This document shows positions 3,349 through 19,568 of a stretch of 19,568 nt of DNA, piece by piece. The DNA is from an uncultured beta proteobacterium (GTDB lineage Bacteria > Pseudomonadota > Gammaproteobacteria > Burkholderiales > Rhodocyclaceae): positions 1 through 19,568 of the forward strand of contig CAIZHL010000200.1 in assembly GCA_903932755.1 (NCBI GenBank). The letters are read 5' to 3'. Below the pieces are notes generated by a model that saw only the letters and a program-made list of their open reading frames with translations, was not told where the DNA came from and did no database searches. The number at the start of each line of letters is the position of its first letter. Position 1 is the first letter of the stretch. Position numbers and translations under genes: made by a program.

Positions 3349-3356
3349 TGCAATCC

Positions 3357-4412
3357 TCATTGTTGGTGGTTGCCGCTGCCGGATGGATTCAGGGCTGGTT
3401 TTGGATTTGCCGCTGCCGGTTCGCGGATGCGTCGCGAAAAATCGGCGGCAGTGTCGGCGGCCTGAGCCCGTGCATTGACATGGGCGAGGCGCTGGAGCTG
3501 CGGGAAAGGCAGGCTGGTATCGAGCCGGCCGGATTCATACAGATACTCGGGAACATAGCCGCTGGCGAGGATCTTCCAGCTGAATTGCATATGCGTTGCA
3601 TTGACCCGGGTGTTGTACCAGATGTCGGTGGTGCAGTTGTTGACCAGGGTATTGTAGAAGTCGGGCTCGGCTTTCAGCGCGTTCATCTTGCGTACATACT
3701 CGAGAAACAGCTTGCGGCCGTTCTCGATCCGCCCCTGCGTCCGATATACATAAACGTCCTCCGGCGGATCATGGCGATAGTTGGTGCGCAGACGGATTAC
3801 ATCGCGCTCGTCGGCGACTACGTAGTAGAGCTCGTACTGGCGGAAGAAGCCCTTGATGGTGGAATACGCCTCGCCCTTTTCCTTGCGCGTTTCGATGGAA
3901 ATCGCGAGATGGTCGCCGCCGGCAAAGGCGAAGCTGACGAAGGTGTGGGCGATGGCCGGCCCCATCCAATAGACTGCCACCAGATCGACGCCTTCCAGCT
4001 TGCTGAGGTCGTAGGTCTTGTCATACCAGGCGGGGGTGTAGTCGGTTTCGCTGCGGTAAGCGAAGTTGCGGATGTTGTGCACCGTGATCCTGTCGCCTTC
4101 GATGGTGGCGTAGGCAAGCCTGGCCACGTCCGGCTGCCAGTCGCGATCGTTGGAAGGTTCGATGCCGAGCCACCACGCCGTCACGGCGGCAAACAGCACA
4201 AGGTAGGCTGCCAGCGCGCGCCAGCGCCAGCGGCGAAAGGCCAAGCCCGTCAGAGCCAGCAGCGCTGCGAGGGCAAATGTTGCGGCCAGACCGGCTTGCA
4301 CAACGGGCGCCTGCGGGCCCGAATAATAGAGGGCCAGCGCCCCCCATGCGCCGCTCGCGATGATCGATGCGGCGAGCAGGATCCAACCCGGAATGGCGAC
4401 AGCATGTTTCAC
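3357..4412 (-). CDS. DUF4105 (Lnb N-terminal-like) membrane protein
   Basis: This 351-residue protein has three N-terminal hydrophobic segments (about 8-30, 37-58 and 65-82) followed by a soluble domain. That domain has the DUF4105 signatures: AHTFVSF with His156, an IETRKEKGE stretch near 174, and VNNCTTD with Cys260. The conserved His and Cys of this family resemble a hydrolase or papain-like site, but that is inference. The topology puts the main domain outside the cytoplasmic membrane. The start is GTG at 4412 with a GGAAG motif 9 bp upstream. Its stop overlaps the 3360 ATG of the PlpD-like gene (ATGA), so the two are translationally coupled and may act together in envelope lipid or lipoprotein processing. 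Substrate unknown. Confidence 0.8.
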   Translation of the reverse strand: MKHAVAIPGWILLAASIIASGAWGALALYYSGPQAPVVQAGLAATFALAALLALTGLAFRRWRWRALAAYLVLFAAVTAWWLGIEPSNDRDWQPDVARLAYATIEGDRITVHNIRNFAYRSETDYTPAWYDKTYDLSKLEGVDLVAVYWMGPAIAHTFVSFAFAGGDHLAISIETRKEKGEAYSTIKGFFRQYELYYVVADERDVIRLRTNYRHDPPEDVYVYRTQGRIENGRKLFLEYVRKMNALKAEPDFYNTLVNNCTTDIWYNTRVNATHMQFSWKILASGYVPEYLYESGRLDTSLPFPQLQRLAHVNARAQAADTAADFSRRIREPAAANPKPALNPSGSGNHQQ

Positions 4413-7902: not shown

Positions 7903-8625
7903 TCATGAAACCGGGCGCCTGGCATTCGGGTTGGCGAACAGTTCCTTCATCAGGGCTGTTTCGCGTTCGGTGACGATGGCGAGGAACTCGTCGGCGCCTT
8001 TCATGAAGCTGAAGGCGTCGAAGCCCCTTTGCAGGAAGGAATGCAGGTCGCCCAGTCCCGCCAGGTGCGCCGGTCCGTTCATCAACTTGAGTGAGAAGTG
8101 GATCAGCGGCATGCGCGTCAGGCGATCCAGGGTCTTGCCTATCCTGTCGATCAGGTCGATCTGCAATTCGCGGTCCTTCCTGCGGCCGCAAAGGCGATAG
8201 GCCGCGACGTAGGACGGCCAGTCGATCGCACTGCTTTTGCCGAGCTTGCGCAGTGCCTGCACCATCGCGGTATCCAGCGACTCGGAGAGCGCGTCCATCT
8301 TCACCGCTTCGAGCAGCGTCGCCAGCGCCCGTGCCGGCAGCACATGGACCATGATCGGCACCACGCGCGCCAGTTCATCGTCGCGGCTGCGGAAATCCTT
8401 GGGGCCATAAAGGTCGCTGAGGAAAAATTCCGCAGCGGGCTTGTGCCGCGGACTGGCGAGCAGGTCCGCGTAATTGCCGGCGAGGCGCGCCGCCTGCCAC
8501 TCCTTGAGCCGCGGAAAATCCCCGGGGGCGGAATCATCCATCCGTTCGGCACGCAGCGCCTGCGCTTCGGCGATGCCGGCGGCCAGTTGGTGGCCGATGG
8601 CTTCCTTGTCGAGGTCCTCATCCAT
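7903..8625 (-). CDS. FFLEELY-motif protein of unknown function
   Basis: From the ATG at 8625 the product has 240 residues and is mostly helical. It contains AAEFFLSDLYGPKDF (FFLSDLYG at residues 67-74), which fits the FFLEELY-motif family known from Betaproteobacteria. There is no signal peptide or membrane segment, so it should be cytoplasmic. A TTG at 8649 would add eight residues, but neither start has a strong ribosome binding site. The gene is divergent from the aldehyde dehydrogenase gene, and the conserved palindrome at 8660-8679 lies 35 bp upstream of its start, so it may share that control. Function is unknown. Confidence 0.75.
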   Translation of the reverse strand: MDEDLDKEAIGHQLAAGIAEAQALRAERMDDSAPGDFPRLKEWQAARLAGNYADLLASPRHKPAAEFFLSDLYGPKDFRSRDDELARVVPIMVHVLPARALATLLEAVKMDALSESLDTAMVQALRKLGKSSAIDWPSYVAAYRLCGRRKDRELQIDLIDRIGKTLDRLTRMPLIHFSLKLMNGPAHLAGLGDLHSFLQRGFDAFSFMKGADEFLAIVTERETALMKELFANPNARRPVS

Positions 8626-8659
8626 GGGGCCGATTATCCATCCGGCCAAGCCATTCCCG

Positions 8660-8704
8660 TTAGAGTGGCCTGCCTAATCAGCCGGTTCACCGCCGCGTAG
8701 ACTG
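8660..8704 (+). promoter_or_regulatory. Palindromic operator-like site plus -10-like TAGACTG, upstream of ALDH
   Basis: TTAGAGTGGCCTGCCTAATC (8660-8679) is an imperfect palindrome with TTAG/CTAA ends, and TAGACTG (8698-8704) lies 18 bp further on. A near-identical pair occurs upstream of the phasin gene at 15795-15829, with 16 of 20 bases shared in the palindrome and all seven in TAGACTG. If TAGACT is the -10, the palindrome centre falls near -41. No consensus -35 is visible, which would fit an activator, but this is inference. Confidence 0.6.
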
Positions 8705-8741: not shown

Positions 8742-10187
8742 ATGAACGCAAGCGAAGCGGTAGCAGGCGCGGTCGCCGGGCAGGACGTCGATTCGGCCGG
8801 ATTCGGCGGCGTCTTCCGCGCCATGCATGCCGCCACCCGTCGCAATGCAGGTGTGGCGCGCAGCCGCCGCGAGGCGCAACTGGATGCCCTGTTCGCCCTG
8901 CTGCACGACAATGCCGACAGGTTCGTGGCGGCGATATCCGCCGACTTCGGCCACCGTTCGGCGCATGAAACCCGCCTGCTGGAAGTGTTCCCCAGCTTGG
9001 AGGCCGTGCGCCACAATCGCTCCCGCGTCGGCGCATGGATGAAGCCGCAGAAGAAGTCGCCCTCGATCTGGTTCCGCCCGGGGCGGGCGCGCATCATCCC
9101 GCAACCACTGGGCGTGGTCGGCATCATCGTGCCCTGGAACTACCCGCTGTTCCTCGCGGTTTCGCCGCTGGCGGCGGCGCTGGCGGCGGGAAACCGGGTG
9201 ATGATCAAGATGTCGGAATTCACTCCGCGCACGGGCGAACTGCTGGCCGAACTCGTCACCAGGTATTTTGCCGGGGATGACGTCTCCGTCGTGCTTGGCG
9301 ATGCGACCGCCGGCGCCGCTTTCGCCCGCCTTCCCTTTGATCATCTCCTATTCACCGGGTCCACCCGCGTCGGCCACGACATCATGCGCATGGCGGCGGC
9401 GAACCTGACGCCCGTCACGCTGGAACTGGGCGGCAAGTCGCCGGCGATCGTCGGCCCCGGCTATCCGCTGCAAAAGGCCGCCGAACGCATCATGGTCGGC
9501 AAGCTGCTCAACGCCGGACAGACCTGCATCGCGCCCGACTATGTGCTGGTGCCCGCCGGCAGCGAGCAGGCCTTCGTCGAGGCGGCCCGCGCCGTGGTGG
9601 CCCGGTGTTATCCGGCACTGGCCAATACTCCGGACTACACCGCGATCATCAACGACCGCCACTACGAACGCCTGCAGGCATACGTGAGCGACGCGCAGCA
9701 GCGCGGGGCCCGGATCGAACCGCTGTCGGCGGCCGCCGCGGATGCCGCCAGCCGGCGCCTGCCGCCGCTCGCGCTGCTCGGGGTCGACGATGACATGCGC
9801 GTGATGCAGGACGAGATCTTCGGCCCGCTGCTGCCGATCCTGCCCTATGCCGACCTCGACGCCGCGATCTCTTATGTGAACCGGCATCCGCGCCCGCTGG
9901 CCCTGTATTGCTTCGAGAACGACTCCGCGCGCATTGATCGCGTCCTCAACGAAAACGTGGCCGGTGGCGTCACGGTCAATGACACCCTGCTGCACATCGC
10001 GCAGGAAGAGCTCCCCTTCGGCGGCGTCGGCCCCAGCGGCATGGGGCATTACCATGGCATCGAGGGCTTTCGCACCTTCTCCAAGATGAAGGCAGTGTTC
10101 TATCAGTCGGGATTGAACGGCATGTCGCTGTTCAACCCGCCGTACGGCGCGATGTTCGAGCGCCTGACGAAGTTTTTGATTCGCTGA
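8742..10187 (+). CDS. Aldehyde dehydrogenase, coniferyl-aldehyde-dehydrogenase-like
   Basis: This 481-residue NAD(P)-dependent aldehyde dehydrogenase oxidises an aldehyde to the acid. Visible landmarks are PWNYP (131-135), Lys156 of the cofactor site, FTGST (204-208), the general base Glu228 in LELGGKSP, the catalytic Cys262 in GQTC, and EIFGPLLP and LPFGGVGPSGMGHYHG further on. The GHYHG and FRTFSKMKAVFYQ endings are typical of the CalB-like group, which also includes medium- and long-chain aldehyde dehydrogenases. AGGAGGAGGA (8727-8736) is a very strong ribosome binding site. The lipase gene starts 9 bp downstream and a GMC alcohol dehydrogenase follows, so the likely substrate is the aldehyde made by that enzyme, a fatty aldehyde in this context. 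Confidence 0.92.
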   Translation: MNASEAVAGAVAGQDVDSAGFGGVFRAMHAATRRNAGVARSRREAQLDALFALLHDNADRFVAAISADFGHRSAHETRLLEVFPSLEAVRHNRSRVGAWMKPQKKSPSIWFRPGRARIIPQPLGVVGIIVPWNYPLFLAVSPLAAALAAGNRVMIKMSEFTPRTGELLAELVTRYFAGDDVSVVLGDATAGAAFARLPFDHLLFTGSTRVGHDIMRMAAANLTPVTLELGGKSPAIVGPGYPLQKAAERIMVGKLLNAGQTCIAPDYVLVPAGSEQAFVEAARAVVARCYPALANTPDYTAIINDRHYERLQAYVSDAQQRGARIEPLSAAAADAASRRLPPLALLGVDDDMRVMQDEIFGPLLPILPYADLDAAISYVNRHPRPLALYCFENDSARIDRVLNENVAGGVTVNDTLLHIAQEELPFGGVGPSGMGHYHGIEGFRTFSKMKAVFYQSGLNGMSLFNPPYGAMFERLTKFLIR

Positions 10188-10196
10188 AAGTCGGCG

Positions 10197-11114
10197 ATGG
10201 CGGCACGGCACATGCGCTGGCTCCTGCTCTGCGAACTGCTGTTGTACGCGCTGCTGGGTGGCTGGCTGGTGTCGCGGGCCGGCTGGACCCCGCTGCAGGC
10301 GGCCGGTCTCGGGTTGGCAGGATTTCTTGGCGTGCGCCTGTTCCTTGTGTTGCTGAGCTTCGGCTTGATGCTGACGGATTCGACCGCGGTACCCGCAGGC
10401 CTGCGCATCGGTCCGCTCGGTGCGCTGCGCATGGTGGTCGAGGAATACTTCGCGCTGCTTGTGCTGTTTTCCGCAATTCAGCCCTTCGAGTCCTTCTGGC
10501 TGGGGCCGGATCGGCTGAACAAGCTGAGCGGGGAGCGGCAGCCCCTGCTGCTGATCCATGGCTACCAGTGCAATCGCGGCTTCTGGTTCTGGCTGCGGTC
10601 GCGACTCGAAGCGGCCGGCTGGACCGTGGCAACCCACAGCATGGAGCCGCCATGGACGGAAATCGAAAACTATGCTGGGGGCATTGAGCGGCGCATCGAC
10701 GACGTGCTGGCGGCGACCGGTGCAAGGCAAGTGATCCTGATCGGCCACAGCATGGGCGGACTGGCCTGTCGCACCTATCTGCGGGCTCACGGCAAGGACA
10801 AGGTGGCGCGCATGATCACGCTGGGATCGGTGCATCACGGCACCCGCCTGGCGCACCTGGGCATCGGGCCGAATGCGCGACAGATGCGCATCGGCAACCC
10901 CTGGCTGCTGGCGCTGGGAGCAAGCGGAGCGGTGCCGCTGCCGCGCGGCTCGGTCTCGATCTACAGCTGCCACGACAATTTCGTTTACCCGCAGGAAACC
11001 GGTTCGCGGCTGGAGGGCGCCACCAACGTCGCCATCGGCGGCGTCGGTCATCTGGGCATGGCGTTCTCGCCTTTTGTGCTGGGCAAACTGCTGGAGGCGC
11101 TGGAGGCGACATGA
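10197..11114 (+). CDS. Membrane-anchored alpha/beta hydrolase, lipase-like
   Basis: The 305-residue protein has two N-terminal hydrophobic segments (about 7-25 and 35-58) and another near 85-94, then a lipase-type alpha/beta hydrolase domain. The oxyanion motif HGYQCNRGFW begins at 121, the nucleophile elbow is GHSMGG (Ser185), and the likely acid and base are Asp260 (SCHDNFV) and His285 (GVGHLGM). The fold resembles bacterial triacylglycerol lipases and PGAP1-like esterases. Between an aldehyde dehydrogenase and a GMC alcohol dehydrogenase it could release acids and alcohols from esters at the membrane; substrate is not shown. Its stop overlaps the next ATG (ATGA at 11111-11114), so the two are translationally coupled. 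The ribosome binding site is weak. Confidence 0.85.
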   Translation: MAARHMRWLLLCELLLYALLGGWLVSRAGWTPLQAAGLGLAGFLGVRLFLVLLSFGLMLTDSTAVPAGLRIGPLGALRMVVEEYFALLVLFSAIQPFESFWLGPDRLNKLSGERQPLLLIHGYQCNRGFWFWLRSRLEAAGWTVATHSMEPPWTEIENYAGGIERRIDDVLAATGARQVILIGHSMGGLACRTYLRAHGKDKVARMITLGSVHHGTRLAHLGIGPNARQMRIGNPWLLALGASGAVPLPRGSVSIYSCHDNFVYPQETGSRLEGATNVAIGGVGHLGMAFSPFVLGKLLEALEAT

Positions 11115-12715
11115 AGCAGTTCGATTACATCGTGATAGGCGGCGGGCCCGGCGGCTGTGCCGTGGCCGGGCGCCTTTCGGAGGATCCGGATGTCAGCGTC
11201 TGCCTGCTCGAAGCCGGCGGCAGCGACGACCGGATGCTGGTCAGGGTGCCCTTCTGCACCGTGCTGATGCTGCCCACGGCGATCAACAACTGGGCCTTCG
11301 AATCGATTCCCCAGCCAGGGCTGAACGGCAGGCGCAGCTATCAGCCGCGCGGCAAGGTGCTGGGCGGTTCGAGTTCGATCAATGCGATGGTTTACATGCG
11401 CGGCCATCCATCGGACTACGACCGTTGGGCGGCGCTGGGCAATGACGGCTGGTCCTTCCGCGAGGTATTGCACTACTTCAAGAAGTCGGAACACAACGAG
11501 GATTTCGACGACGAGCATCACGGCCGCGGCGGGCCGCTGAATGTCGCGCATTTGCGCTCGATGAACCCGTTCCAGGAAATCTACCTGGAGGCCGCGCGCC
11601 AGGCCGGATTCAAACTGGTTCGCGATTTCAACGGCGCCGACCAGGAAGGCATCGGCATCCATCAGGTGACCCAGAAGGACGGCGAACGCTGGAATGCCGC
11701 GCGCGCCTACCTGACCCCGCACCTTACCAGCCGCACCAACCTGAAGGTCATCACCGGCGCGCGCGCGCGGCGCATCCTGTTCGACGGTAGGCGTGCCAGC
11801 GGGGTGGAATTCCTCCAGGGCGGCGAAATCCGCGTGCTCCATGCGCGACGCGAACTCATCCTCAGCGCCGGCGCATTGCAATCGCCGCAACTGCTGATGC
11901 TGTCCGGCATCGGCGACGGTGCGGAACTGCAAAAATTCGGGATTCCGGTGATCCACGACCTGCCCGGTGTCGGCAAGAATCTGCAGGACCACCCGGACTA
12001 TGTTTTCAACTACCGCGCCCGGTCGCCCGACCTGCTCGGCGTCTCCATGGCCGGTGCGCTGCGCTTGCTGAAGGACATCGGTCGCTACCGGAAATCCCGC
12101 ACCGGCATGATCGCGTCAAACGGCGCCGAGGGCGGCGGCTTTCTGCGACGGTTTGCTGATTCGCCGGCGCCGGATTTCCAGTTGCATTTCGTCGTCGGCC
12201 TGATCGACAACCATGTGCGCAGGCTGCACTGGGGACACGGCTACTCCTGCCATGTCTGCCTGTTGCGGCCGAAGAGCGTGGGCACGGTCGGCCTGTCCGG
12301 CGCCGACCCCGCGGCTGCGCCCGTCATCGATCCGAGGTTCTACGATCATCCCGATGATCTCGACGCGATGGTGGATGGCTTCAAGCTCACCAGGAAGATC
12401 ATGGACGCGCCTGCCCTGGCCGGCATCCGCAGCAGCGAGCTTTACAGTGCGGGGATGGATTCCGATGAAGCCATACGCGAGGAACTGAGGAATCGCTCGG
12501 ACACCATCTACCACCCGGTCGGCACCTGCAAGATGGGCATCGACCCGATGGCCGTGGTCGACCCGCAGTTGCGCGTGCACGGCATCGCCGGCCTGCGGGT
12601 GGTGGATGCATCGATCATGCCGACGCTGATCGGCGGCAACACCAATGCGCCGGTCATGATGATCGGCGAAAAGGCTGCGGACATGATCCGCCTCGCGGCC
12701 GCCGACAAGGCCTGA
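11111..12715 (+). CDS. GMC-family FAD alcohol dehydrogenase (AlkJ/choline-dehydrogenase-like)
   Basis: This 534-residue flavoprotein has the dinucleotide motif GGGPGG (10-15) with Glu34 for the ribose, the first GMC signature near 79-98 (PRGKVLGGSSSINAMVYMRG), the second near 252-269 (SAGALQSPQLLMLSGIG), and the C-terminal active-site pair His468 (YHPVGTCKMG) and Asn512 (GGNTNAP). It is close to the AlkJ and BetA groups, quinone-linked dehydrogenases that convert alcohols to aldehydes at the inner face of the cytoplasmic membrane. Coupled to a lipase-like gene and preceded by an aldehyde dehydrogenase, it probably oxidises the alcohol part of esters. Whether the substrate is a fatty alcohol is inference from the nearby reductase and WS/DGAT. 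Confidence 0.92.
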   Translation: MKQFDYIVIGGGPGGCAVAGRLSEDPDVSVCLLEAGGSDDRMLVRVPFCTVLMLPTAINNWAFESIPQPGLNGRRSYQPRGKVLGGSSSINAMVYMRGHPSDYDRWAALGNDGWSFREVLHYFKKSEHNEDFDDEHHGRGGPLNVAHLRSMNPFQEIYLEAARQAGFKLVRDFNGADQEGIGIHQVTQKDGERWNAARAYLTPHLTSRTNLKVITGARARRILFDGRRASGVEFLQGGEIRVLHARRELILSAGALQSPQLLMLSGIGDGAELQKFGIPVIHDLPGVGKNLQDHPDYVFNYRARSPDLLGVSMAGALRLLKDIGRYRKSRTGMIASNGAEGGGFLRRFADSPAPDFQLHFVVGLIDNHVRRLHWGHGYSCHVCLLRPKSVGTVGLSGADPAAAPVIDPRFYDHPDDLDAMVDGFKLTRKIMDAPALAGIRSSELYSAGMDSDEAIREELRNRSDTIYHPVGTCKMGIDPMAVVDPQLRVHGIAGLRVVDASIMPTLIGGNTNAPVMMIGEKAADMIRLAAADKA

Positions 12716-12786: not shown

Positions 12787-13677
12787 TCAGTCCGGCGGCG
12801 GAGCCCCGGGCGTCTCCGCTCCGGGAGTCGTGCCGCGGCGTATCCACTCCAGCATCGCACGTACTGTCTCGCGCTCGACGCCGACAAAGCCGTGGGCTGA
12901 AAACGGTTCGCAGGGCCCGCCGCGTCCCGGTCCGCCACCGCGCATCGTCAGCAAGGGCTTGCCGGATTTCGCGGCGAACTCGCGGGCGTCGCGGTAGCTG
13001 GTGTAGCGGCAGGGATCGTCTTCATGGTGCACCCACAGGGCTGCCGGCGGCAGCGCGCCGAAATCCATCGCGGACAGCCCGGGACCATTGCGCGAGGCGC
13101 TGAACACCGAGGAGGTGAGGATCAGGCGCCGCGCCAGCCCGGGATTCATGCGCGCCGCATGGAAGGCGCTGAGGGAGCCTTCGCTGGTGCCGACGAAGGT
13201 CCAGTCCGCCACCCGGTAGCGCGCGGAAACGTCGCCCAGCAGCGTCGCGATGTCGGCGCCGTAGCGCGGGGTTTCGCGCCACTGCTGGCTGAAGGTCGCC
13301 CACTGGTCGGAGGGGGCATCGAGCACCGCGACCAGGATGTCGTCATCGAGCCACTGCCTTCGCGAACGTACCAGGAAGTTGCCGCGCAGATCCAACTGCA
13401 ACTGGCCTGCTTCCTCGCGCAGCTTCAGGATTCCGGGATGTCCGGGGAACAGCGCGATGCCATGGCGGAAGGCCTGCGGCGCGGCGTGATGGGTGACCAG
13501 CGCCGAGATGCTGTAGCCCTCCCGCTGCACCTGGTGCAGTCGGGTTGGGAATTCGAGGTTGGGGTCGGGCGCCGTCGCGCCGCCTTGCTGGGCGATGGCC
13601 GCGGCGGCGGGAGCCAGCAGGAGCAGGGCGCCAAGCAGGAGGCCCGGGGCCGTCTGCATGCACCGCCGGGCGTTCAT
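12787..13677 (-). CDS. Secreted alpha/beta hydrolase
   Basis: The 296-residue protein has a signal peptide (about residues 1-30, ending near AIAQ) and one alpha/beta hydrolase domain. The nucleophile motif is GTSEGS (Ser165), likely acids are Asp220 or Asp221 (VHHEDDPC), and the likely catalytic His262 lies in SAHGFVG. Cys223 and Cys256 flank the active-site region and could form a disulfide. The C-terminus is Pro/Gly-rich. It starts 31 bp after the acyl-CoA reductase stop on the same strand and is probably its downstream operon partner. Near-exact 17-bp direct repeats flank the gene. Substrate unknown; an ester or lipid would fit the neighbourhood. The start could also be the Met at codon 7. 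Confidence 0.8.
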   Translation of the reverse strand: MNARRCMQTAPGLLLGALLLLAPAAAAIAQQGGATAPDPNLEFPTRLHQVQREGYSISALVTHHAAPQAFRHGIALFPGHPGILKLREEAGQLQLDLRGNFLVRSRRQWLDDDILVAVLDAPSDQWATFSQQWRETPRYGADIATLLGDVSARYRVADWTFVGTSEGSLSAFHAARMNPGLARRLILTSSVFSASRNGPGLSAMDFGALPPAALWVHHEDDPCRYTSYRDAREFAAKSGKPLLTMRGGGPGRGGPCEPFSAHGFVGVERETVRAMLEWIRRGTTPGAETPGAPPPD

Positions 13678-13691
13678 CCCTGCGCCGTCCC

Positions 13692-13708
13692 GCCAGCGCC
13701 GACTTTTT
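13692..13708. repeat. Direct repeat, right copy, flanking the secreted hydrolase gene
   Basis: This is the second copy of the 17-bp repeat described at 12755. It ends one base before the stop codon of the acyl-CoA reductase gene on the minus strand. Confidence 0.6.
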
Positions 13709-15694
13709 TCAGAAATGGATGCCGCGCATGATCTGGCTGAAGGCCACCTGGTCGGCTGACGGCATCGGCGCCGCGCCGTCGGCCTTGCCCTTGGCCGCGG
13801 TGGAGTCGGGGAACATGCGGTAGGTGGTGTTCATGATGATCTGCGCCACGCGCGGCGCCGCCGCGTGCAGCACCTGGCCGAATATCCCGAGGCGCGTGGC
13901 GATGCGCACCGGGCGGTGGATGATGGCATCGACGATCATGTCGCCGGCATCGTCCGGGGTCAGGGTCGGCACGTGGTCGTAAAGCTTGGTCGGGGCGATC
14001 ATCGGCGTCTTCACCAGCGGCATGTTGATGGTGGTGAATTCGACGCCGCGGTCGACGAACTCGGAAGCCGCACAGCGGGTCCAGGCATCCAGTGCGGCCT
14101 TCGAGGCGACGTAGGCCGAAAAGCGCGGCGCGTTGGTCAGGACGCCGATCGACGAGATGTTGATGACATGCCCGGAGCGCCTCTCGGTCATTTTGGGCAG
14201 GACGCCCAGCGTCAGGCGCAGGGCGCCGAAGTAGTTGACCTGCATGGTGCGCTCGAAGTCGTGGAAGCGGTCGTAGGAAGTCTCGATGCCGCGGCGGATG
14301 GAACGTCCCGCGTTGTTCACCAGGATGTCCACGCCGCCGTGCTCGGCATTGAGCTTGGCGACCAGCTCTGCGCACTGCTGTTCGTCGCCGACGTCGGCCG
14401 AATAGGCGATGATCGTAAGGCCGCGTTCCCTGGCTTCGGCCAGGGTCTCGTTGATCTTTTCCATGTCGCGGGCGACGATGATGGTGATGGCCCCGGCCTC
14501 GGCGATTTTCAGTGCCGCGGCCTTGCCGATGCCCGATGAACCGCCGGTGATCAGCACGACCTTGCCGGCAACGCGGCCCTTCAGGCTGCGGTCGATGAAC
14601 AGATCGGGGTCGAGCCGGCGCTCCCAGTAGTCCCACAGCTTCCAGGCGTAGTCCTCCAGCTTGGGCACGCTGATGCCGGAGCCGGCGAGCGCCTTTTCGG
14701 TTTCGCGGTTGTCGAAGCGGGTCGGATAGTTGATGAACTGCAGGATGTCGTCGGGCAGGCCGAGGTCCTTCATGACGGCGCGCTGGATGCGCCGCACCGG
14801 CGTCAGCGCCATCAGGCTCTTCTTGACGCCGCGCGGGATGAAGCCGAGCAGCGCGGCGTTGATGCGCATGGTCATCTCCGGCGCATGGCCGGCGCGGGCG
14901 AAGATGTTGAGCACGTCGCCGACGCGGCGCGGATGCGGATCGGTGAGGTGGAAGGCGCGCCGGTCGAGGCCCTTCTTGTGCGCCAGGAAGTTCATGGCGT
15001 CGACCACGTAATCCACCGGCACGATGTTGATGCGACCGCCTTCGAGGCCGATGGCCGGCATCCAGGGCGGCATGATGCGCCGCATCTTCTGGATCAGCTT
15101 GAAGAAGTAGTAGGGGCCGTCGATCTTGTCCATCTCGCCGCTGCGCGAATCGCCGACCACGACGCCGGGCCGATAGACGCGCCAGGGCCGCTTGCACTCG
15201 GTGCGGACGATCTTCTCCGACTCGTGCTTGGAGCCGAAGTAGGGATGCTCGAGGTTTTCCGCTTCGTCGAACATGTCTTCGCGGAAAACGCCTTCGAACA
15301 GACCCGCCGCAGCGATCGAGCTGACGTGATGAACGCAGCCGGCCTCGATGGCATGGGCCAGGGCCACGGTGTTGCTGGTGCCGACCACGTTCGCCGCCAT
15401 CTGGACCTCGGCGCTGGCGCCGAGGTCATACACGGCGGCGAGATGGAAAAAGTGGTCGACCTTGCCCTTGAGCTTCTTGATGTCGGCCTTGCCGACGCCG
15501 AGGCAGGGCTGCAGCAGGTCGCCGACGATGGGGATGGCGCGACCCCTGTCGTCCCAGAGCGCATGGAGCGCGTCAAGCCGTTCCGGGCTCTTGTCGCGGG
15601 TCAGGAAGTAGACCGTGGTCGCCGGCTTTTCCAGGAGTTTGGCGACCAGCCGCTTGCCGATGAATCCGGTTGCCCCGGTGACAAAATAAATCAT
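13709..15694 (-). CDS. Alcohol-forming fatty acyl-CoA reductase, two-domain Marinobacter type
   Basis: At 661 residues this matches in length and order the Marinobacter reductase Maqu_2220, which reduces fatty acyl-CoA to the primary alcohol. The N-terminal extended-SDR domain has TGATGFIG (6-13), HLAAVYD (84-90) and Tyr152-x3-Lys156. The C-terminal classical SDR domain has TGGSSGIG (383-390), NNAG (460-463), Ser514-Ser515 and Tyr528-x3-Lys532. By analogy with Acr1, the C-terminal part should make the aldehyde from acyl-CoA and the N-terminal part reduce it to alcohol, using NADPH. Blocks such as YYFFKLIQKMRR and INISSIGVLTNAPRFSAYVA agree closely with what I know of that family. GAGGAGG precedes the ATG. 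The wax ester synthase at the right edge would use the product. Confidence 0.93.
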   Translation of the reverse strand: MIYFVTGATGFIGKRLVAKLLEKPATTVYFLTRDKSPERLDALHALWDDRGRAIPIVGDLLQPCLGVGKADIKKLKGKVDHFFHLAAVYDLGASAEVQMAANVVGTSNTVALAHAIEAGCVHHVSSIAAAGLFEGVFREDMFDEAENLEHPYFGSKHESEKIVRTECKRPWRVYRPGVVVGDSRSGEMDKIDGPYYFFKLIQKMRRIMPPWMPAIGLEGGRINIVPVDYVVDAMNFLAHKKGLDRRAFHLTDPHPRRVGDVLNIFARAGHAPEMTMRINAALLGFIPRGVKKSLMALTPVRRIQRAVMKDLGLPDDILQFINYPTRFDNRETEKALAGSGISVPKLEDYAWKLWDYWERRLDPDLFIDRSLKGRVAGKVVLITGGSSGIGKAAALKIAEAGAITIIVARDMEKINETLAEARERGLTIIAYSADVGDEQQCAELVAKLNAEHGGVDILVNNAGRSIRRGIETSYDRFHDFERTMQVNYFGALRLTLGVLPKMTERRSGHVINISSIGVLTNAPRFSAYVASKAALDAWTRCAASEFVDRGVEFTTINMPLVKTPMIAPTKLYDHVPTLTPDDAGDMIVDAIIHRPVRIATRLGIFGQVLHAAAPRVAQIIMNTTYRMFPDSTAAKGKADGAAPMPSADQVAFSQIMRGIHF

Positions 15695-15715
15695 TGCTGC
15701 CTCCTCGTCGTTGTT

Positions 15716-15741
15716 CGATAGCGGCGCTCTGCGATAGCGGC
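15716..15741. repeat. Direct repeat pair in the acyl-CoA reductase leader
   Basis: CGATAGCGGC occurs at 15716-15725 and again at 15732-15741, 16 bp apart start to start. Both lie between the possible -10 of the reductase gene and its ribosome binding site, where they could act as an operator or leader element. Confidence 0.5.
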
Positions 15742-15754
15742 CCCTTTGGCCGGA

Positions 15755-15760
15755 ATCATA
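15755..15760 (-). promoter_or_regulatory. Possible -10 element of the acyl-CoA reductase gene
   Basis: On the minus strand this reads TATGAT, five of six bases of the -10 consensus, about 60 bp before the reductase ATG. No good -35 is visible at 16-18 bp. It lies about 40 bp from the palindrome at 15795, so both divergent genes could be controlled together. Confidence 0.4.
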
Positions 15761-15794
15761 CAGAAGGCGCAGTCCTTGCGGTGCGCGCCGGACA

Positions 15795-15829
15795 TTAGTG
15801 TGACCTCTCTAATCCGAGTCGCTAGACTG
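15795..15829 (+). promoter_or_regulatory. Palindromic operator-like site plus -10-like TAGACTG, upstream of the phasin
   Basis: TTAGTGTGACCTCTCTAATC (15795-15814) is followed 8 bp later by TAGACTG (15823-15829). It is the partner of the site upstream of the ALDH gene; there the gap to TAGACTG is 18 bp, exactly 10 bp longer. If TAGACT is the -10, transcription would start near 15835, just before two hairpins in the leader. Confidence 0.6.
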
Positions 15830-15837
15830 CCGCGCAT

Positions 15838-15875
15838 GGCAGGCATGAGGCCTGCCGCAGCCTCGCAGGCGAGGC
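15838..15875 (+). repeat. Two tandem perfect hairpins in the phasin leader
   Basis: GGCAGGC (15838-15844) pairs with GCCTGCC (15850-15856), and GCCTCGC (15860-15866) pairs with GCGAGGC (15869-15875), the latter in practice six pairs around a 4-nt loop. Only 3 nt separate the stems. They lie at the predicted 5' end of the mRNA, about 20 nt before the GGGAG ribosome binding site, and could protect the transcript or bind a regulator. Confidence 0.55.
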
Positions 15876-15905
15876 ATCGGGAATACCTTCAATCGGGAGA
15901 TGGTC

Positions 15906-16376
15906 ATGGTCAAGAAGCTCGTGGCAAAGAAACTCAAATCCGTCGGCAATGACAGCCAGCTGTCTGCCACCATTCGCGAATCGGCCCAGCAAATCTGGCT
16001 GGCCGGGCTCGGCGCATTCGCCAAGGCGCAGCTGGAAGGCAACAAGGTGTTCGATGCCCTGATCCGCGAAGGCGAAGCGATCCAGCAGAAAACCCGCAAG
16101 GTGACCGAAGACAAGGTGACCGAAATGGCCGCCAAGGCGACCGGTACCTGGGACAAGCTCGAACAGGTGTTCGAGAACCGCGTCGCGCGTTCGCTGAACA
16201 GCCTCGGCGTGCCGACCAAGGACGACGTCGCGCTGCTGGCGAAGCGCGTCGCCGAGTTGAAGGCCGAAGTGGAAAAGCTCAACAAGGCTTCGAAGCCGGC
16301 TGCCGCTGCAGCGAAGCCGGTGCGCCGCGCGGCAGTGAAGGCGGTGCGCAAGCCCGCAGCCAAGGCCGCAGCCTGA
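15906..16376 (+). CDS. PhaF/PhaI-type phasin (inclusion-coat protein)
   Basis: From the ATG at 15906 the product has 156 residues. It is a typical granule-associated protein: the RESAQQIWLAGLGAFAKAQLEG amphipathic segment near residues 24-45, a long helix with hydrophobic and charged repeats, a leucine-zipper-like coiled coil near 108-128 (DDVALLAKRVAELKAEVEKL), and a short AAKP-type basic tail (about 130-156). In Pseudomonas such proteins coat PHA granules, and the PhaF tail binds DNA to partition them. GGGAGA (15895-15900) is well spaced for 15906, while the ATG at 15900 overlaps it, so I chose the later one. No PHA synthase lies in the window; with the reductase and WS/DGAT nearby it may coat wax-ester inclusions instead. 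Confidence 0.88.
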   Translation: MVKKLVAKKLKSVGNDSQLSATIRESAQQIWLAGLGAFAKAQLEGNKVFDALIREGEAIQQKTRKVTEDKVTEMAAKATGTWDKLEQVFENRVARSLNSLGVPTKDDVALLAKRVAELKAEVEKLNKASKPAAAAAKPVRRAAVKAVRKPAAKAAA

Positions 16377-16426
16377 TCGCCGGATTCCCTGAACGCGCCC
16401 GATGACCTCCGGCGGGGAGCGTTGAA

Positions 16427-17665
16427 GTGAGTTCGCCTCCCCCCCGGCCGCGCACCGCCCTGGCGCTGGCCGGGGGCGGACCGCTCGGCGCGGTGTATGA
16501 GATCGGCGCGGTGATGGCGCTCTCGGAGGCGCTGGATGGCCTCGATTTCAATGACCTCGATGTCTATGTCGGCGTCAGCGCGGGCGGCTTCATCGCCGCC
16601 GGCCTGGCCAGCGGCCTGAGTCCCGCCTACCTCTACCGGATGTTCATCGACAGCGATTCTGCGGAGGTTCCGTTCGAACCGGCGATGCTGCTGCAGCCGG
16701 CGTTCGGCGAGTACGCGCGGCGCGCCGCAATGGTGCCGGCCCTGCTCGCCGAGGCTCTGGGCGAGTATTTGCGCAGTCCCCTGCGCCAGGATTTCCTCGC
16801 ATCCTTCCAGCGCCTGTCGCGGGCGATTCCCACCGGCATTTTCGACAGCTCGGGAATCGACGAGTTCCTGCGCCGGCTGTTTTCTCTGCCCGGCCTGAGC
16901 AACGATTTCCGGCGCTGCAGGAAGCGCCTGTTCCTGGTGGCGACCGACCTCGATTCAGGAACATCGGTCGCGTTTGGCGCCCGCGGCCATGACGCCGTGC
17001 CCATCTCCACCGCGGTCCAGGCCAGCGCGGCGCTGCCGGGCCTGTTTCCGCCGGTCGAGATAGGCGGGCGCTGGTTTGTCGACGGCGCGCTGAAGAAGAC
17101 GTTGCATGCCTCGGTTGCGCTGAAGGAGGGGGCGCGACTTGTCATCTGCATCAACCCGCTGGTACCGTTCGATGCCCGGCACGCGTCCCACGAAAAGCAT
17201 CTCCGGCGCCGCCGCCTGGTCGACGGCGGCTTGCCCGTGGTCCTCGCGCAGACCTTCCGCGCCATCATCCATTCGCGCATGAAGACCGGGCTGGCGAAGT
17301 ACGAGATCGAATACAAGGACGCCGACGTCATCCTGTTCGAGCCCGGATCCGACGATGCCGACATGTTCTTCACCAACATGTTCAGTTATGCCGATCGCAA
17401 GCGGCTCTCGGAACGCGCCTATCGCAAGACGCGCGAGGAACTGCTGCGCCGCCACGACGAACTGGCGCCGAAGCTGGCGCGGCACGGCGTTGCCATCAAC
17501 CGCGCGGTGCTCGAAGATCCGCACCGGTCGCTGGCGCGCTGCATGGCGCGGCTCAAACGCCGTCGCGCCGGCGCCATGGGACTCACCGCCCTGCGCCTGT
17601 CCGACACCCTGGACGATCTGGCGCTCGGGCTCAGGCGCCTGCGGCACGCGCGCCGGCCGGCATGA
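16427..17665 (+). CDS. Cytoplasmic patatin-like phospholipase
   Basis: This 412-residue protein has an N-terminal patatin domain without a signal peptide. The oxyanion loop is GGGPLG (16-21), with Pro-Leu in place of the usual Ala-Arg. The nucleophile is Ser51 in GVSAGG, and the dyad Asp219-Gly220 lies in FVDGALKK. It ends in an unusually basic, helix-prone region (about residues 330-412, rich in Arg and Lys). The start is GTG with GGGGAG 7 bp upstream. It lies 50 bp after the phasin gene. A patatin beside an inclusion-coat gene suggests a depolymerase or lipase acting on stored lipid, as lipid-droplet patatins do in other organisms; this is inference. Confidence 0.88.
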   Translation: MSSPPPRPRTALALAGGGPLGAVYEIGAVMALSEALDGLDFNDLDVYVGVSAGGFIAAGLASGLSPAYLYRMFIDSDSAEVPFEPAMLLQPAFGEYARRAAMVPALLAEALGEYLRSPLRQDFLASFQRLSRAIPTGIFDSSGIDEFLRRLFSLPGLSNDFRRCRKRLFLVATDLDSGTSVAFGARGHDAVPISTAVQASAALPGLFPPVEIGGRWFVDGALKKTLHASVALKEGARLVICINPLVPFDARHASHEKHLRRRRLVDGGLPVVLAQTFRAIIHSRMKTGLAKYEIEYKDADVILFEPGSDDADMFFTNMFSYADRKRLSERAYRKTREELLRRHDELAPKLARHGVAINRAVLEDPHRSLARCMARLKRRRAGAMGLTALRLSDTLDDLALGLRRLRHARRPA

Positions 17666-17719
17666 CGGGCGGGTTTGGCGTTTCTGCTATCCTCTGCGGC
17701 TAGCGGAGATTGCCCATAG

Positions 17720-18367
17720 ATGGAAAGAAAGCCCAAGCGCCGCACGCGCGAGCGCATCCTCGAAACGTCGCTGGTGCTGTTCAACGAATTCGGCGAACCG
17801 AATGTCACGACGCAGCTGATTTCCGACGAGATGGGGATCAGCCCGGGCAACCTGTATTACCACTTCCACAACAAGGACGAAATCATCGAGTCCCTGTTCG
17901 CCGACTTCGAGCACGGCATCGAGGAAACGCTGGCTGCCCCGGTGCGGCGTGCGCCCGACGTGGAAGACATCTGGCTGTTCCTGCACCTGCTGTTCGAGGC
18001 CATCTGGAAGTACCGCTTCCTTTACCGCGACATCAACGAGCTGCTGTCGCGCAACCGCCTCCTGGAAACGCATTTCAAGCGCATCGTGGCGCACAAGGTG
18101 CATACCGCCGCGGCGATCTGCCGCGGGCTGGTGGCGACCGGCGACATGCGGGCCGGCCCCGCCGAGATCCAGGCGCTCGCCATCAACATGACCGTGGTGG
18201 CGACCTACTGGCTGTCCTTCGAGTTCGTCAGCGATCCGCGCAAAAAGATCGACGGCAAAAGCCTGGCGCGCGGCGCCTTCCAGGTCATGGCGCTGGCCGC
18301 GCCCTACCTGGCCGGGCGCTCGCGCGAACTGTTCGAGGAACTTTCAAAAACCTACCTGACCGATTGA
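17720..18367 (+). CDS. TetR-family regulator, PhaD-like
   Basis: The 215-residue protein has an N-terminal helix-turn-helix (about residues 10-56, RERILETSLVLFNEFGEPNV and MGISPGNLYYHFHNKDEII), followed by a helical ligand-binding domain with DIWLFLHLLFEAIWKYRFLYRDI near 86-108. This layout and wording closely follow PhaD of Pseudomonas, a TetR-type activator of the pha genes including phaI. A GGAG lies 11 bp upstream of the ATG. It sits between the patatin gene and the TPR-like gene and is probably cotranscribed with the phasin. It is the best local candidate to bind the palindromes at 8660 and 15795. The ligand is probably an acyl-CoA or lipid derivative, by analogy only. Confidence 0.85.
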   Translation: MERKPKRRTRERILETSLVLFNEFGEPNVTTQLISDEMGISPGNLYYHFHNKDEIIESLFADFEHGIEETLAAPVRRAPDVEDIWLFLHLLFEAIWKYRFLYRDINELLSRNRLLETHFKRIVAHKVHTAAAICRGLVATGDMRAGPAEIQALAINMTVVATYWLSFEFVSDPRKKIDGKSLARGAFQVMALAAPYLAGRSRELFEELSKTYLTD

Positions 18368-18383
18368 ATGGAGGAGACCCATC

Positions 18384-19166
18384 ATGGCAAAGGCGGCCTG
18401 GAAAAAATTCCCGCATGCGGACAAGGCGTATGTGTTCGCCGGTGCGGCGCTGAAGAAGAACTGGGAACGCCTGCACCGCGGCGACCGCGAGCCGTATCCG
18501 GCCGATGCGGCGGTGCAGGAGGCCTGGCGCCTGTACCACCAGGGTGAGTTCCACAAGGCCTGCGAGGCGGGCCTGGCAGCGGGCGCCGACGGCTACAACG
18601 CGGCCAACAAGGCGGCGATGATCTACGCCAATTACCTGGAGACCGATGACAAGCGCAAGCTGGCGCTGTTCCAGGAAATATCCGAGCGCTGCGAGGACCT
18701 GCAGCAGGCGCTGCCGAAGAACGCCAACGCGTACTACATCCAGGCCTACGCGCTGGGCCGCTACAGCCAGGGGATTTCGGTGATCAAGGCGCTGACGCAG
18801 GGCCTCGGCGGCAAGATCAAGTCGGCGCTGGAAACCGCGATCAAGCTCGAACCGAAGCACGCCGACGCCTACAGCGCGCTCGGCGCCTACCATGCCGAGG
18901 TGGTGGACAAGGTCGGCGCCATGGTGGGAAAACTGACCTACGGCGCCAGCAAGGATGTGGCGGTCAAGCATTTCGCGTCGGCGCTGAAAATCGCGCCCGA
19001 TTCGGCCATCGCCTGCATCGAGTACGCCAATTCACTGGTCATGCTGTTCGGCCAGGCCCGCATGGACGAAGCGGTCAAGCTCTACGAAAAGGCGGCGGCG
19101 GCGACTCCGCTCGACGCCATGGAGCGCCTCGACGTCGAACTGGCGAAGTCCGAACTCGAGGACTAG
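18384..19166 (+). CDS. TPR-like helical repeat protein of unknown function
   Basis: This 260-residue protein begins AKAAWKKFPHADKAYVFAGAALKKNW and has no signal peptide. It is almost all helical with pairs typical of tetratricopeptide repeats, clearest at about 125-175 (ETAIKLEPKHADAYSALGAYHAE) and 185-240 (HFASALKIAPDSAIACIEYANSL and EAVKLYEKAAAATPLDAMERLDVEL). The pattern resembles the RMD/TPR-type proteins, but I do not assign a family. GAGGAG precedes the ATG by 7 bp, and it starts 16 bp after the TetR stop, so it is the last gene of the phasin operon. It may be a scaffold for inclusion proteins, which is speculation. Its stop is 3 bp from the stop of the convergent WS/DGAT gene. Confidence 0.75.
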   Translation: MAKAAWKKFPHADKAYVFAGAALKKNWERLHRGDREPYPADAAVQEAWRLYHQGEFHKACEAGLAAGADGYNAANKAAMIYANYLETDDKRKLALFQEISERCEDLQQALPKNANAYYIQAYALGRYSQGISVIKALTQGLGGKIKSALETAIKLEPKHADAYSALGAYHAEVVDKVGAMVGKLTYGASKDVAVKHFASALKIAPDSAIACIEYANSLVMLFGQARMDEAVKLYEKAAAATPLDAMERLDVELAKSELED

Positions 19167-19169
19167 GAC

Positions 19170-19568
19170 TCAGGCGAGCTTGCGGAAGCGCTTCGGCACC
19201 CGGATCGCGGGGGCGGGCGGCGCAGATGCGGCAGACACTGATTTGGCCCGAGTTGGTAGCTTGCCGGGCGCGGACCTGGCGCCGGGGGCCCCTGGCGCCT
19301 TCCGCCGGGTCCGCACCGCCGTGGCTTCCGGCGCTGCGGTGCCGGGTGGCGGCAGTGCCTTGCCGAACAACTGCTGTTCGACCTGCGCCAGGTCGAAAGG
19401 CTGCTCCCAGTCCAGCATCAGCAGGGCCAGCATCATCTTTTCCACTTCGGCGGCGAACAGCGGGGTGATGGTTTCGGGGTCCGGGATGAAATGGCGGACG
19501 GTGATGAGGCTGAACTGGACGTGGTCGACGTAGCTCAGTATCGAGACGCCGATGCCGATGTCGCCGGA
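19170..19568 (-). CDS. Wax ester synthase/diacylglycerol acyltransferase, C-terminal part (partial)
   Basis: Read through the window edge, this minus-strand frame gives 132 residues without interruption. The start, SGDIGIGVSILSYVDHVQFS followed by LITVRHFIPDPETITPLF and AAEVEKMMLALLM, is the C-terminal end of the WS/DGAT fold: a GIxVSxLSYxDxVxFxL strand, then R...IPDPE and a helix. These enzymes join fatty alcohol and acyl-CoA into wax esters, and many also make triacylglycerol. The HHxxxDG active site lies outside the window. After the domain (...QLFGKALPPPG) comes a tail of about 55 residues rich in Pro, Ala, Lys and Arg, ending RVPKRFRKLA, which many relatives lack. The gene is convergent with the phasin operon and completes a pathway with the acyl-CoA reductase at 13709-15694. 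Confidence 0.85.
   Translation of the reverse strand, partial: SGDIGIGVSILSYVDHVQFSLITVRHFIPDPETITPLFAAEVEKMMLALLMLDWEQPFDLAQVEQQLFGKALPPPGTAAPEATAVRTRRKAPGAPGARSAPGKLPTRAKSVSAASAPPAPAIRVPKRFRKLA

Follow-up and report, generated by a model that had tools for sequence, protein, structure and literature searches.

A probable wax-ester storage and turnover module with paired operator-like dyads in a Sulfuritalea-like betaproteobacterium and its relatives

Can a single bacterial gene cluster hold what is needed to make, coat and mobilize wax-ester inclusions? The question is raised by a stretch of DNA of 19,568 nucleotides (hereafter the window), which is the whole of contig C200 (CAIZHL010000200.1) of a Sulfuritalea-like metagenome-assembled genome (MAG; 2.8 Mb, 603 contigs, 70% complete). 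An earlier note, made from the letters of the window, had proposed such a self-contained unit at its right-hand end, with an acyl-CoA reductase, a wax ester synthase/diacylglycerol acyltransferase (WS/DGAT), a phasin, a patatin and a TetR regulator. Gene families, gene order in relatives and intergenic motifs led us to consider it likely that the locus is one regulated module for wax-ester synthesis, coating and oxidation. The wax-ester pathway itself is known; its clustered arrangement, as a likely storage and turnover module, is real and conserved and probably co-regulated.

All five genes were recovered. The minus strand at 13,709–15,694 encodes a two-domain alcohol-forming fatty acyl-CoA reductase (FAR) of the PRK07201 type, which matched NF005539/PRK07201 over its whole length (residues 1–661) with 1001 bits (cut-off 549) and contains GATGFIG, YFGSK, GGSSGIG and YVASK. 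We take Maqu_2220 to be of the same two-domain type. According to the part of a review that was available, Maqu_2220 turns acyl-CoA, acyl-ACP and aldehyde into alcohol (PMC9113324). Reduction of acyl-CoA to alcohol is the putative activity of the window FAR.

The right-edge gene (19,170–19,568, minus strand) comprises the last 132 residues of a WS/DGAT (PF06974, 25 bits against a cut-off of 20.7; TIGR02946, 21 against 310), cut by the contig end. The remainder lies on contig C561, which dovetails with the window: positions 19,208–19,568 equal C561 14,653–14,293 over 361 bp at 96.1% identity without gaps, and both contig ends coincide exactly with the ends of the match. Because of this overlap and the identical gene order in relatives, we infer that the two contigs adjoin. 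The C561 open reading frame (ORF) at 13,057–14,652 is a WS/DGAT (TIGR02946, 375.5 bits against 309.95; PF03007, 116 bits; PF06974, 125 bits) and carries HHSIADG, the HHxxxDG active site that had been expected beyond the contig end. The motif occurred in 68 of 69 distinct WS/DGAT frames above 400 bits from relatives' loci, the one miss being a truncated frame. A protein with MBL-fold and cNMP domains past the WS/DGAT on C561 was tried as a conserved part of the cluster and dropped, as it had no match in the relatives' loci.

Four plus-strand genes lie between the two enzymes. The first (15,900–16,376) encodes a PF05597 phasin with a basic Ala/Lys/Pro-rich C-terminal tail (PF05597, 130 bits against 28.8; TIGR01837, 95.6 against a cut-off of 94.7). 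A patatin-like lipase follows (16,427–17,665; PF01734, 104 bits), with GGGPLG, GVSAG and DGA, and hence both elements of the Ser-Asp dyad (GxSxG, DGA). The TetR-family regulator (17,720–18,367) has a PF13972 C-terminal domain (151 bits) and PF00440; these were its only matches, with no NCBIfam model above cut-off, in a comparison that did not include PhaD, to which it had been likened. The fourth gene, a TPR protein (18,384–19,166) between TetR and WS/DGAT, was missing from the earlier gene list. TatT/TPAT/BstC-type TPR proteins came closest to its predicted fold, but a generic TPR protein scored almost as high, and action on lipid at the droplet is accordingly a weak lead for what it may do.

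Is this gene order conserved? The synteny set consisted of the best 80 of 582 FAR loci, all named, of which the closest belonged to MAGs labelled Sulfuritalea, Rhodocyclaceae, Rhodocyclales and Burkholderiaceae, with Propionivibrio at 82%. The sequence on the phasin side extended over 8 kb or more in 66 loci, among which hidden Markov models (HMMs) detected phasin in 61, patatin in 50, TetR in 51, TPR in 51 and WS/DGAT in 36. Phasin, patatin, TetR and TPR occurred together in 40 of the 66, and all of these with WS/DGAT in 29, which bears out the predicted conservation of gene order in many relatives. Five loci lacked a phasin by the HMM count (L084, L086, L103, L106, L138), one of which (L138) has one by tblastn. 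Accumulibacter loci (L074, L075, L077, L079) were among the cluster carriers, and the cultured Quisquiliibacterium transsilvanicum (L085) has the variant with FAR. In eight FAR loci from other orders of the same class (stretches of 9.8–20 kb), seven were without the other window genes sought; L177, from another order, has FAR with TetR, phasin and an FFLEELY gene. As separate observations, L182 (same class, other order) has an iron-type alcohol dehydrogenase (Fe-ADH) near FAR, and two MAG contigs labelled Acidobacteria, Blastocatellia (L103, L107) carry a FAR 67–68% identical to that of the window, with the rest of the cluster absent from the stretch at hand, reflecting either transfer or misbinning.

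Co-occurrence was assessed in a single draw of 250 same-order genomes, used identically for FAR (E up to 1e-100), WS/DGAT, phasin (PF05597 above its cut-off, which left out sub-cut-off matches in G183 and G206) and PHA synthase; our own genome was included and the others were at least 95% complete. The order was taken as Burkholderiales of GTDB; NCBI places Sulfuritalea in Nitrosomonadales. FAR was present in 35 genomes, and WS/DGAT (PF03007) in those 35 plus G137 and G199. The association of FAR with WS/DGAT (Fisher p 1e-40, inflated by kinship, since the genomes are related and not independent) also held by genus (16 of 16 FAR genera). FAR and WS/DGAT lay within about 10 kb of each other in 24 of the 35 genomes by hand count (23 on the same contig, our own genome via the dovetail). 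In the other 11 (G062, G063, G097, G108, G163, G173, G202, G228, G239, G252, G282) they were farther apart or on separate contigs, so the linkage foreseen for related genomes is common without being general.

The phasin raises the question of whether the locus serves polyhydroxyalkanoate (PHA) granules, with phasin, TetR and patatin (as depolymerase) acting on PHA and FAR and WS/DGAT being mere neighbours. PF05597 phasins are named after PHA granules, and PHA synthase (PhaC, PF07167), found in 170 of the 250 genomes, was present in all 40 genomes with this phasin, namely the 37 WS/DGAT genomes plus G258, G298 and G306. The window also resembles what we take to be the arrangement of the Pseudomonas PhaF/PhaI-PhaD system, a TIGR01837 phasin whose tail is of the basic Lys/Ala/Pro kind, together with a TetR-family regulator. 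It differs in that a Pfam scan of 20 window ORFs recognized no PHA synthase (two PhaC_N matches were obtained in the genome, the listed one on contig C342) and in the distribution of the phasin, which was absent from 130 of the 170 PhaC genomes. Within these 170, it accompanied WS/DGAT in 37 of 37 genomes, versus 3 of 133 without WS/DGAT (Fisher 3e-34, likewise inflated by kinship), and by genus in 18 of 18 versus 1 of 108. The phasin therefore tracks WS/DGAT and not PhaC. In one family, six genomes (G081, G126, G194, G221, G246, G270) further have a separate PF05597 phasin next to each of the two enzymes, FAR and WS/DGAT. We regard a PHA-granule locus as very improbable.

Does the locus depend on this particular FAR? 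In a second set of 101 relatives, 50 genomes were found with WS/DGAT, 48 with phasin and 29 with FAR, and all 29 FAR genomes had both WS/DGAT and phasin (the FAR match of G043 was C-terminal only). Among the 31 same-genus genomes in this set, WS/DGAT was present in 31 and phasin in 30, and FAR in only 12. The FAR-less loci of 17 of the remaining 19 genomes were examined (G009 and G024 were left out; the G006 contig begins at the phasin), and the other cluster genes were retained there. An Fe-ADH (PF00465, 157 bits) took the FAR slot in 16 of the 17, and next to it came a roughly 750-residue protein resembling acyl-ACP reductase (AAR) (L235:9024-11285, minus strand, and 15 more loci, L236–L250), and no FAR match was found in these 16 loci. 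The contig of the 17th (L251) begins at the phasin.

The AAR-like protein was seen in no other locus searched, the window included, within the locus stretches available. It aligns with cyanobacterial AAR (TIGR04058, 6jzq) over residues 355–660, with GATGSIG and a Cys-x-Ala-Glu stretch, and its aligned Cys at residue 616 is presumably the AAR catalytic Cys. The scores were low (TIGR04058, 63 bits, below the cut-off of 449.7; PDB 6jzq, 52 bits). In contrast to cyanobacterial AAR, it carries an N-terminal extension of approximately 350 residues and ends in a basic tail, and the PigE model is closer (C-terminal half, 179 bits, cut-off 850). Databases name it 'dehydrogenase', 'predicted amino acid dehydrogenase' and similar; its AlphaFold model was poor (mean pLDDT 40.6) and was not used. 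It is possibly a new family of aldehyde-forming reductases, and we read the exchange as a one-enzyme fatty-alcohol route replaced by a putative two-enzyme route of AAR-like protein and Fe-ADH. The swap still points to fatty-alcohol supply. Separately, one of these loci (in G012) encodes an additional complete WS/DGAT (L240:9167-10792, minus strand; TIGR02946, 449 bits), which lies between the genes for AAR-like protein and phasin.

The same comparison bears on the possibility of a triacylglycerol or mixed neutral-lipid locus, in which WS/DGAT would act mainly as a DGAT and the reductase would serve, for example, ether lipids or aldehyde detoxification. It would fit the bifunctionality of WS/DGATs, as described in the review text available (PMC9113324), the second WS/DGAT elsewhere in our own genome (contig C373) and the retention of WS/DGAT in same-genus genomes without this FAR. 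Against it, none of the 250 genomes had FAR without WS/DGAT, and the FAR slot of 16 of the 17 FAR-less loci held an aldehyde-forming-type reductase with an alcohol dehydrogenase. We consider this possibility improbable.

How would a stored wax ester be used again? Further to the left in the window, an apparent operon on the plus strand encodes a class-3, fatty-aldehyde-dehydrogenase-like aldehyde dehydrogenase (ALDH; 8742–10,187; PF00171, 288 bits), a lipase-like alpha/beta hydrolase with GHSMG (10,197–11,114; PF00561) and a GMC-family flavin alcohol dehydrogenase/oxidase (11,111–12,715; PF00732/PF05199). Among PDB relatives, the ALDH matched fatty aldehyde dehydrogenase 4qgk with 297 bits, the hydrolase matched Bacillus LipA-type lipases with 64 bits, and the GMC protein matched choline dehydrogenase 9lq0 and alcohol oxidases 8rpg and 8rpf. 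Conversion of alcohol via aldehyde to acid is the FAR step reversed, which fits mobilization of the wax-ester alcohol. Divergent from ALDH on the minus strand lies an FFLEELY-motif/DUF8198 (PF26621) protein (7903–8649), assigned from precomputed domains and homologue names; a Pfam scan of the ORF itself gave no family. Of 18 loci with both genes, 16 had FFLEELY and ALDH in divergent orientation. Elsewhere in the order, too, the FFLEELY gene was found at FAR loci. A hydrolase-like ORF between the two gene groups (12,787–13,677, minus strand; GTSEG motif, no Pfam family) was not counted as part of the module because its matches were confined to the G022 locus (L034/L062, the same genome) and the FAR-less L247.

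This operon could instead mark a locus for the breakdown of alcohols, waxes or alkanes from the environment, with FAR and WS/DGAT storing the excess alcohol and acid while the cells grow on them. ALDH, lipase-like hydrolase and GMC protein do form an apparent operon with its own operator-like dyad (see below), and two different GMC types occupy the one slot: another GMC protein was found there in L036, L042, L043, L044, L045 and L046 (by family scan in L036 and L045), with a small protein resembling TAT-signal proteins nearby in L042 (by eye) and L046 (below cut-off). However, many distant loci keep the FAR/phasin core with no ALDH in the stretch at hand, with the caveat that ALDH may sit elsewhere, as in G003, G036, G037 and G047, and no alkane hydroxylase or uptake gene was recognized among the 20 window ORFs scanned. 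A primarily catabolic locus appears rather unlikely to us.

The window contains two operator-like dyads with the consensus TTAG-N10-CTAA, TTAGAGTGGCCTGCCTAA at 8660–8677, preceding the ALDH/lipase-like/GMC operon, and TTAGTGTGACCTCTCTAA at 15,795–15,812, in the divergent FAR/phasin gap. In the 2.8-Mb genome, TTAGNG-N8-CTAA occurred at these two places only. TTAG-N10-CTAR or YTAG-N10-CTAA was present in 57 of 88 distinct FAR/phasin gaps, window included (shuffled sequences: mean 0.6, maximum 4; spacings other than 10: 0–2), and with up to one mismatch TTAG-N10-CTAA was present in 75 of 88 (shuffled: 3.2). Several gaps had a second copy 22 bp off. The ALDH-side dyad was also found in relatives, lying between FFLEELY and ALDH in 15 of the 16 divergent loci. 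The FAR-less loci kept the phasin-side dyad in 16 of 17 cases and the ALDH-side dyad in all nine stretches that reach that gap (FFLEELY plus ALDH start), the other eight stopping short. The predicted module is thus larger than the gene set first described, taking in the ALDH/lipase-like/GMC operon and FFLEELY behind the same dyad.

In 17 relatives there were 54 dyad places: 17 in FAR/phasin gaps (16 genomes) and 13 at ALDH (13 genomes), both assigned by hand from coordinates, and 24 elsewhere, of which 16 were examined. Five of these 16 touch lipid genes, namely a divergent WS/DGAT-phasin pair (L224), a phasin paralogue (L227), a hydrolase-WS/DGAT pair preceded by the dyad (L233), two genes we take to be acyl-CoA-dehydrogenase-like (L219) and, about 234 bp downstream of a site inside a short ORF, what is presumably a second-type phasin (L216). 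Two more (L226, L228) precede a small protein of no assigned role. Apparent dyads before WS/DGAT in L039 and L127 were artefacts of start positions past the locus edge. The strict dyad and the cluster TetR were associated (both, 53 loci; TetR only, 17; dyad only, 3; neither, 10; too short, 5; p 5e-4), which makes this TetR the best candidate reader. It probably binds the TTAG-N10-CTAA dyads, as a candidate and not a proven regulator.

We propose the following scheme. FAR would reduce fatty acyl-CoA/ACP to fatty alcohol, and the convergent WS/DGAT would join the alcohol with a second acyl-CoA to form wax ester, the droplet of which the PF05597 phasin would coat, with the TPR protein perhaps handling lipid there. 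Patatin and the lipase-like hydrolase would free alcohol and acid, and the GMC flavoenzyme and the fatty-aldehyde dehydrogenase would oxidize the alcohol again to acid, which beta-oxidation could then use. Probably acting on both dyads, the TetR of the cluster would place storage and oxidation under one signal, perhaps an acyl-CoA. The original idea of one unit that makes, coats and mobilizes wax esters is strengthened by the HHxxxDG motif, gene order and co-occurrence, and is modified in that the unit appears larger and has no fixed gene set.

Several observations weigh against this scheme. Of the 31 same-genus genomes, 19 are without this FAR, yet keep WS/DGAT and phasin. WS/DGAT can also make triacylglycerol. 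Because each of the 37 genomes with WS/DGAT encodes PhaC too, the phasin might still serve PHA. The substrate classes of ALDH, GMC protein and lipase-like hydrolase are suggested by distant homology, and the best PDB match of the ALDH is a steroid aldehyde dehydrogenase (9nxl, 374 bits). As for the dyad, reversed control patterns were commoner (6 and 5 in our own genome; 10–68 per strand in relatives), indicating that its rarity is partly due to base composition and that the position of the copies is what counts. Three of the 16 other places adjoin different TetR-like genes (L221, L229, L232), and a regulator other than the cluster TetR may therefore read the dyad; six have no lipid gene, TetR or shared small gene alongside. 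TetR occurred without the strict dyad in 17 loci and the dyad without TetR in three. The region 15,600–19,568 had no sigma-70 consensus match; a sigma-70 promoter overlapping the dyad was considered, and no promoter claim is made. Wax ester as the product, TetR binding and the phasin on the droplet are predictions from the genes. Apart from their bearing on the reader, the dyads of L221, L229 and L232 perhaps reflect cross-regulation.

A more far-reaching reading, which we offer tentatively and think doubtful as a whole, is that of a widespread betaproteobacterial wax-ester droplet system. It would have its own phasin class, an operon-pairing operator (TTAG-N10-CTAA), a swappable alcohol-forming step (FAR, or AAR-like protein plus Fe-ADH) and basic Ala/Lys/Pro-rich tails on phasin, WS/DGAT, AAR-like protein and Fe-ADH. 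These tails might collect the enzymes at the droplet and anchor the droplet to the nucleoid. PhaF reportedly tethers PHA granules to the nucleoid.

How does the locus relate to described systems? The two-step chemistry predicted here is that of the Marinobacter wax-ester pathway (Maqu_2220/Maqu_2507 plus WS/DGAT). Unlike that pathway, the window clusters reductase, WS/DGAT, phasin, patatin, TetR, TPR protein and oxidation operon with a dyad common to two gaps, although the Marinobacter locus itself was not compared. The nearest published context, among open-licence PMC papers and judged from the passages available, is a study of sediment metagenomes (PMC10351704). Those passages describe a betaproteobacterial ws/dgat near a Maqu_2507-type FAR and a PHA-system protein, another betaproteobacterial scaffold with ws/dgat and phasin, and an alphaproteobacterial WS/DGAT among genes of PHA metabolism and regulation. 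The reductase is likened there to Maqu_2507, whereas the window FAR is two-domain, and the passages mention neither patatin nor TetR, and neither an oxidation operon nor a shared operator ('patatin', 'tetr' and 'regulator' occur 0 times in the main text). The statement that no such locus had been described should therefore be toned down. A search of open-licence PMC papers for wax ester, acyl-CoA reductase, phasin and patatin together returned one plant paper, and a search for FFLEELY returned none.

Accumulibacter is known for PHA. If the proposal is true, Sulfuritalea-like bacteria and members of the order including Accumulibacter, modelled on PHA alone, would have a second carbon store, the phasin family would be re-read as a neutral-lipid coat with a candidate operator and regulator on offer, and the cultured Sulfuritalea hydrogenivorans would hold a new kind of aldehyde-forming reductase. 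The wax-ester storers named in the review passages available are Acinetobacter, Marinobacter, Rhodococcus and Mycobacterium (PMC9113324). For a Zoogloea strain, the text available gives an inferred PHA-only store, with no predicted gene for triacylglycerol or wax-ester synthesis (PMC5648520).

Two further features were recorded. The window encodes a second patatin (1099–3360) fused to an Omp85-type barrel (PF01734 plus PF01103), with no link to the cluster seen. Among 373 ORF-model genes from 30 loci (L033–L046, L235–L249), 44 had basic Ala/Lys/Pro-rich C-terminal tails; by position these were 16 WS/DGAT, 11 AAR-like, 10 phasin and 4 Fe-ADH genes and 3 that were none of these. The tails of the window phasin and WS/DGAT stand outside the 44, owing to the choice between overlapping ORFs and to the contig end, and were read from the translations. 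PKRFR-type ends were present in 19 of 55 complete WS/DGAT C-termini, mostly in Sulfuritalea-like loci, and the window WS/DGAT ends in RVPKRFRKLA.

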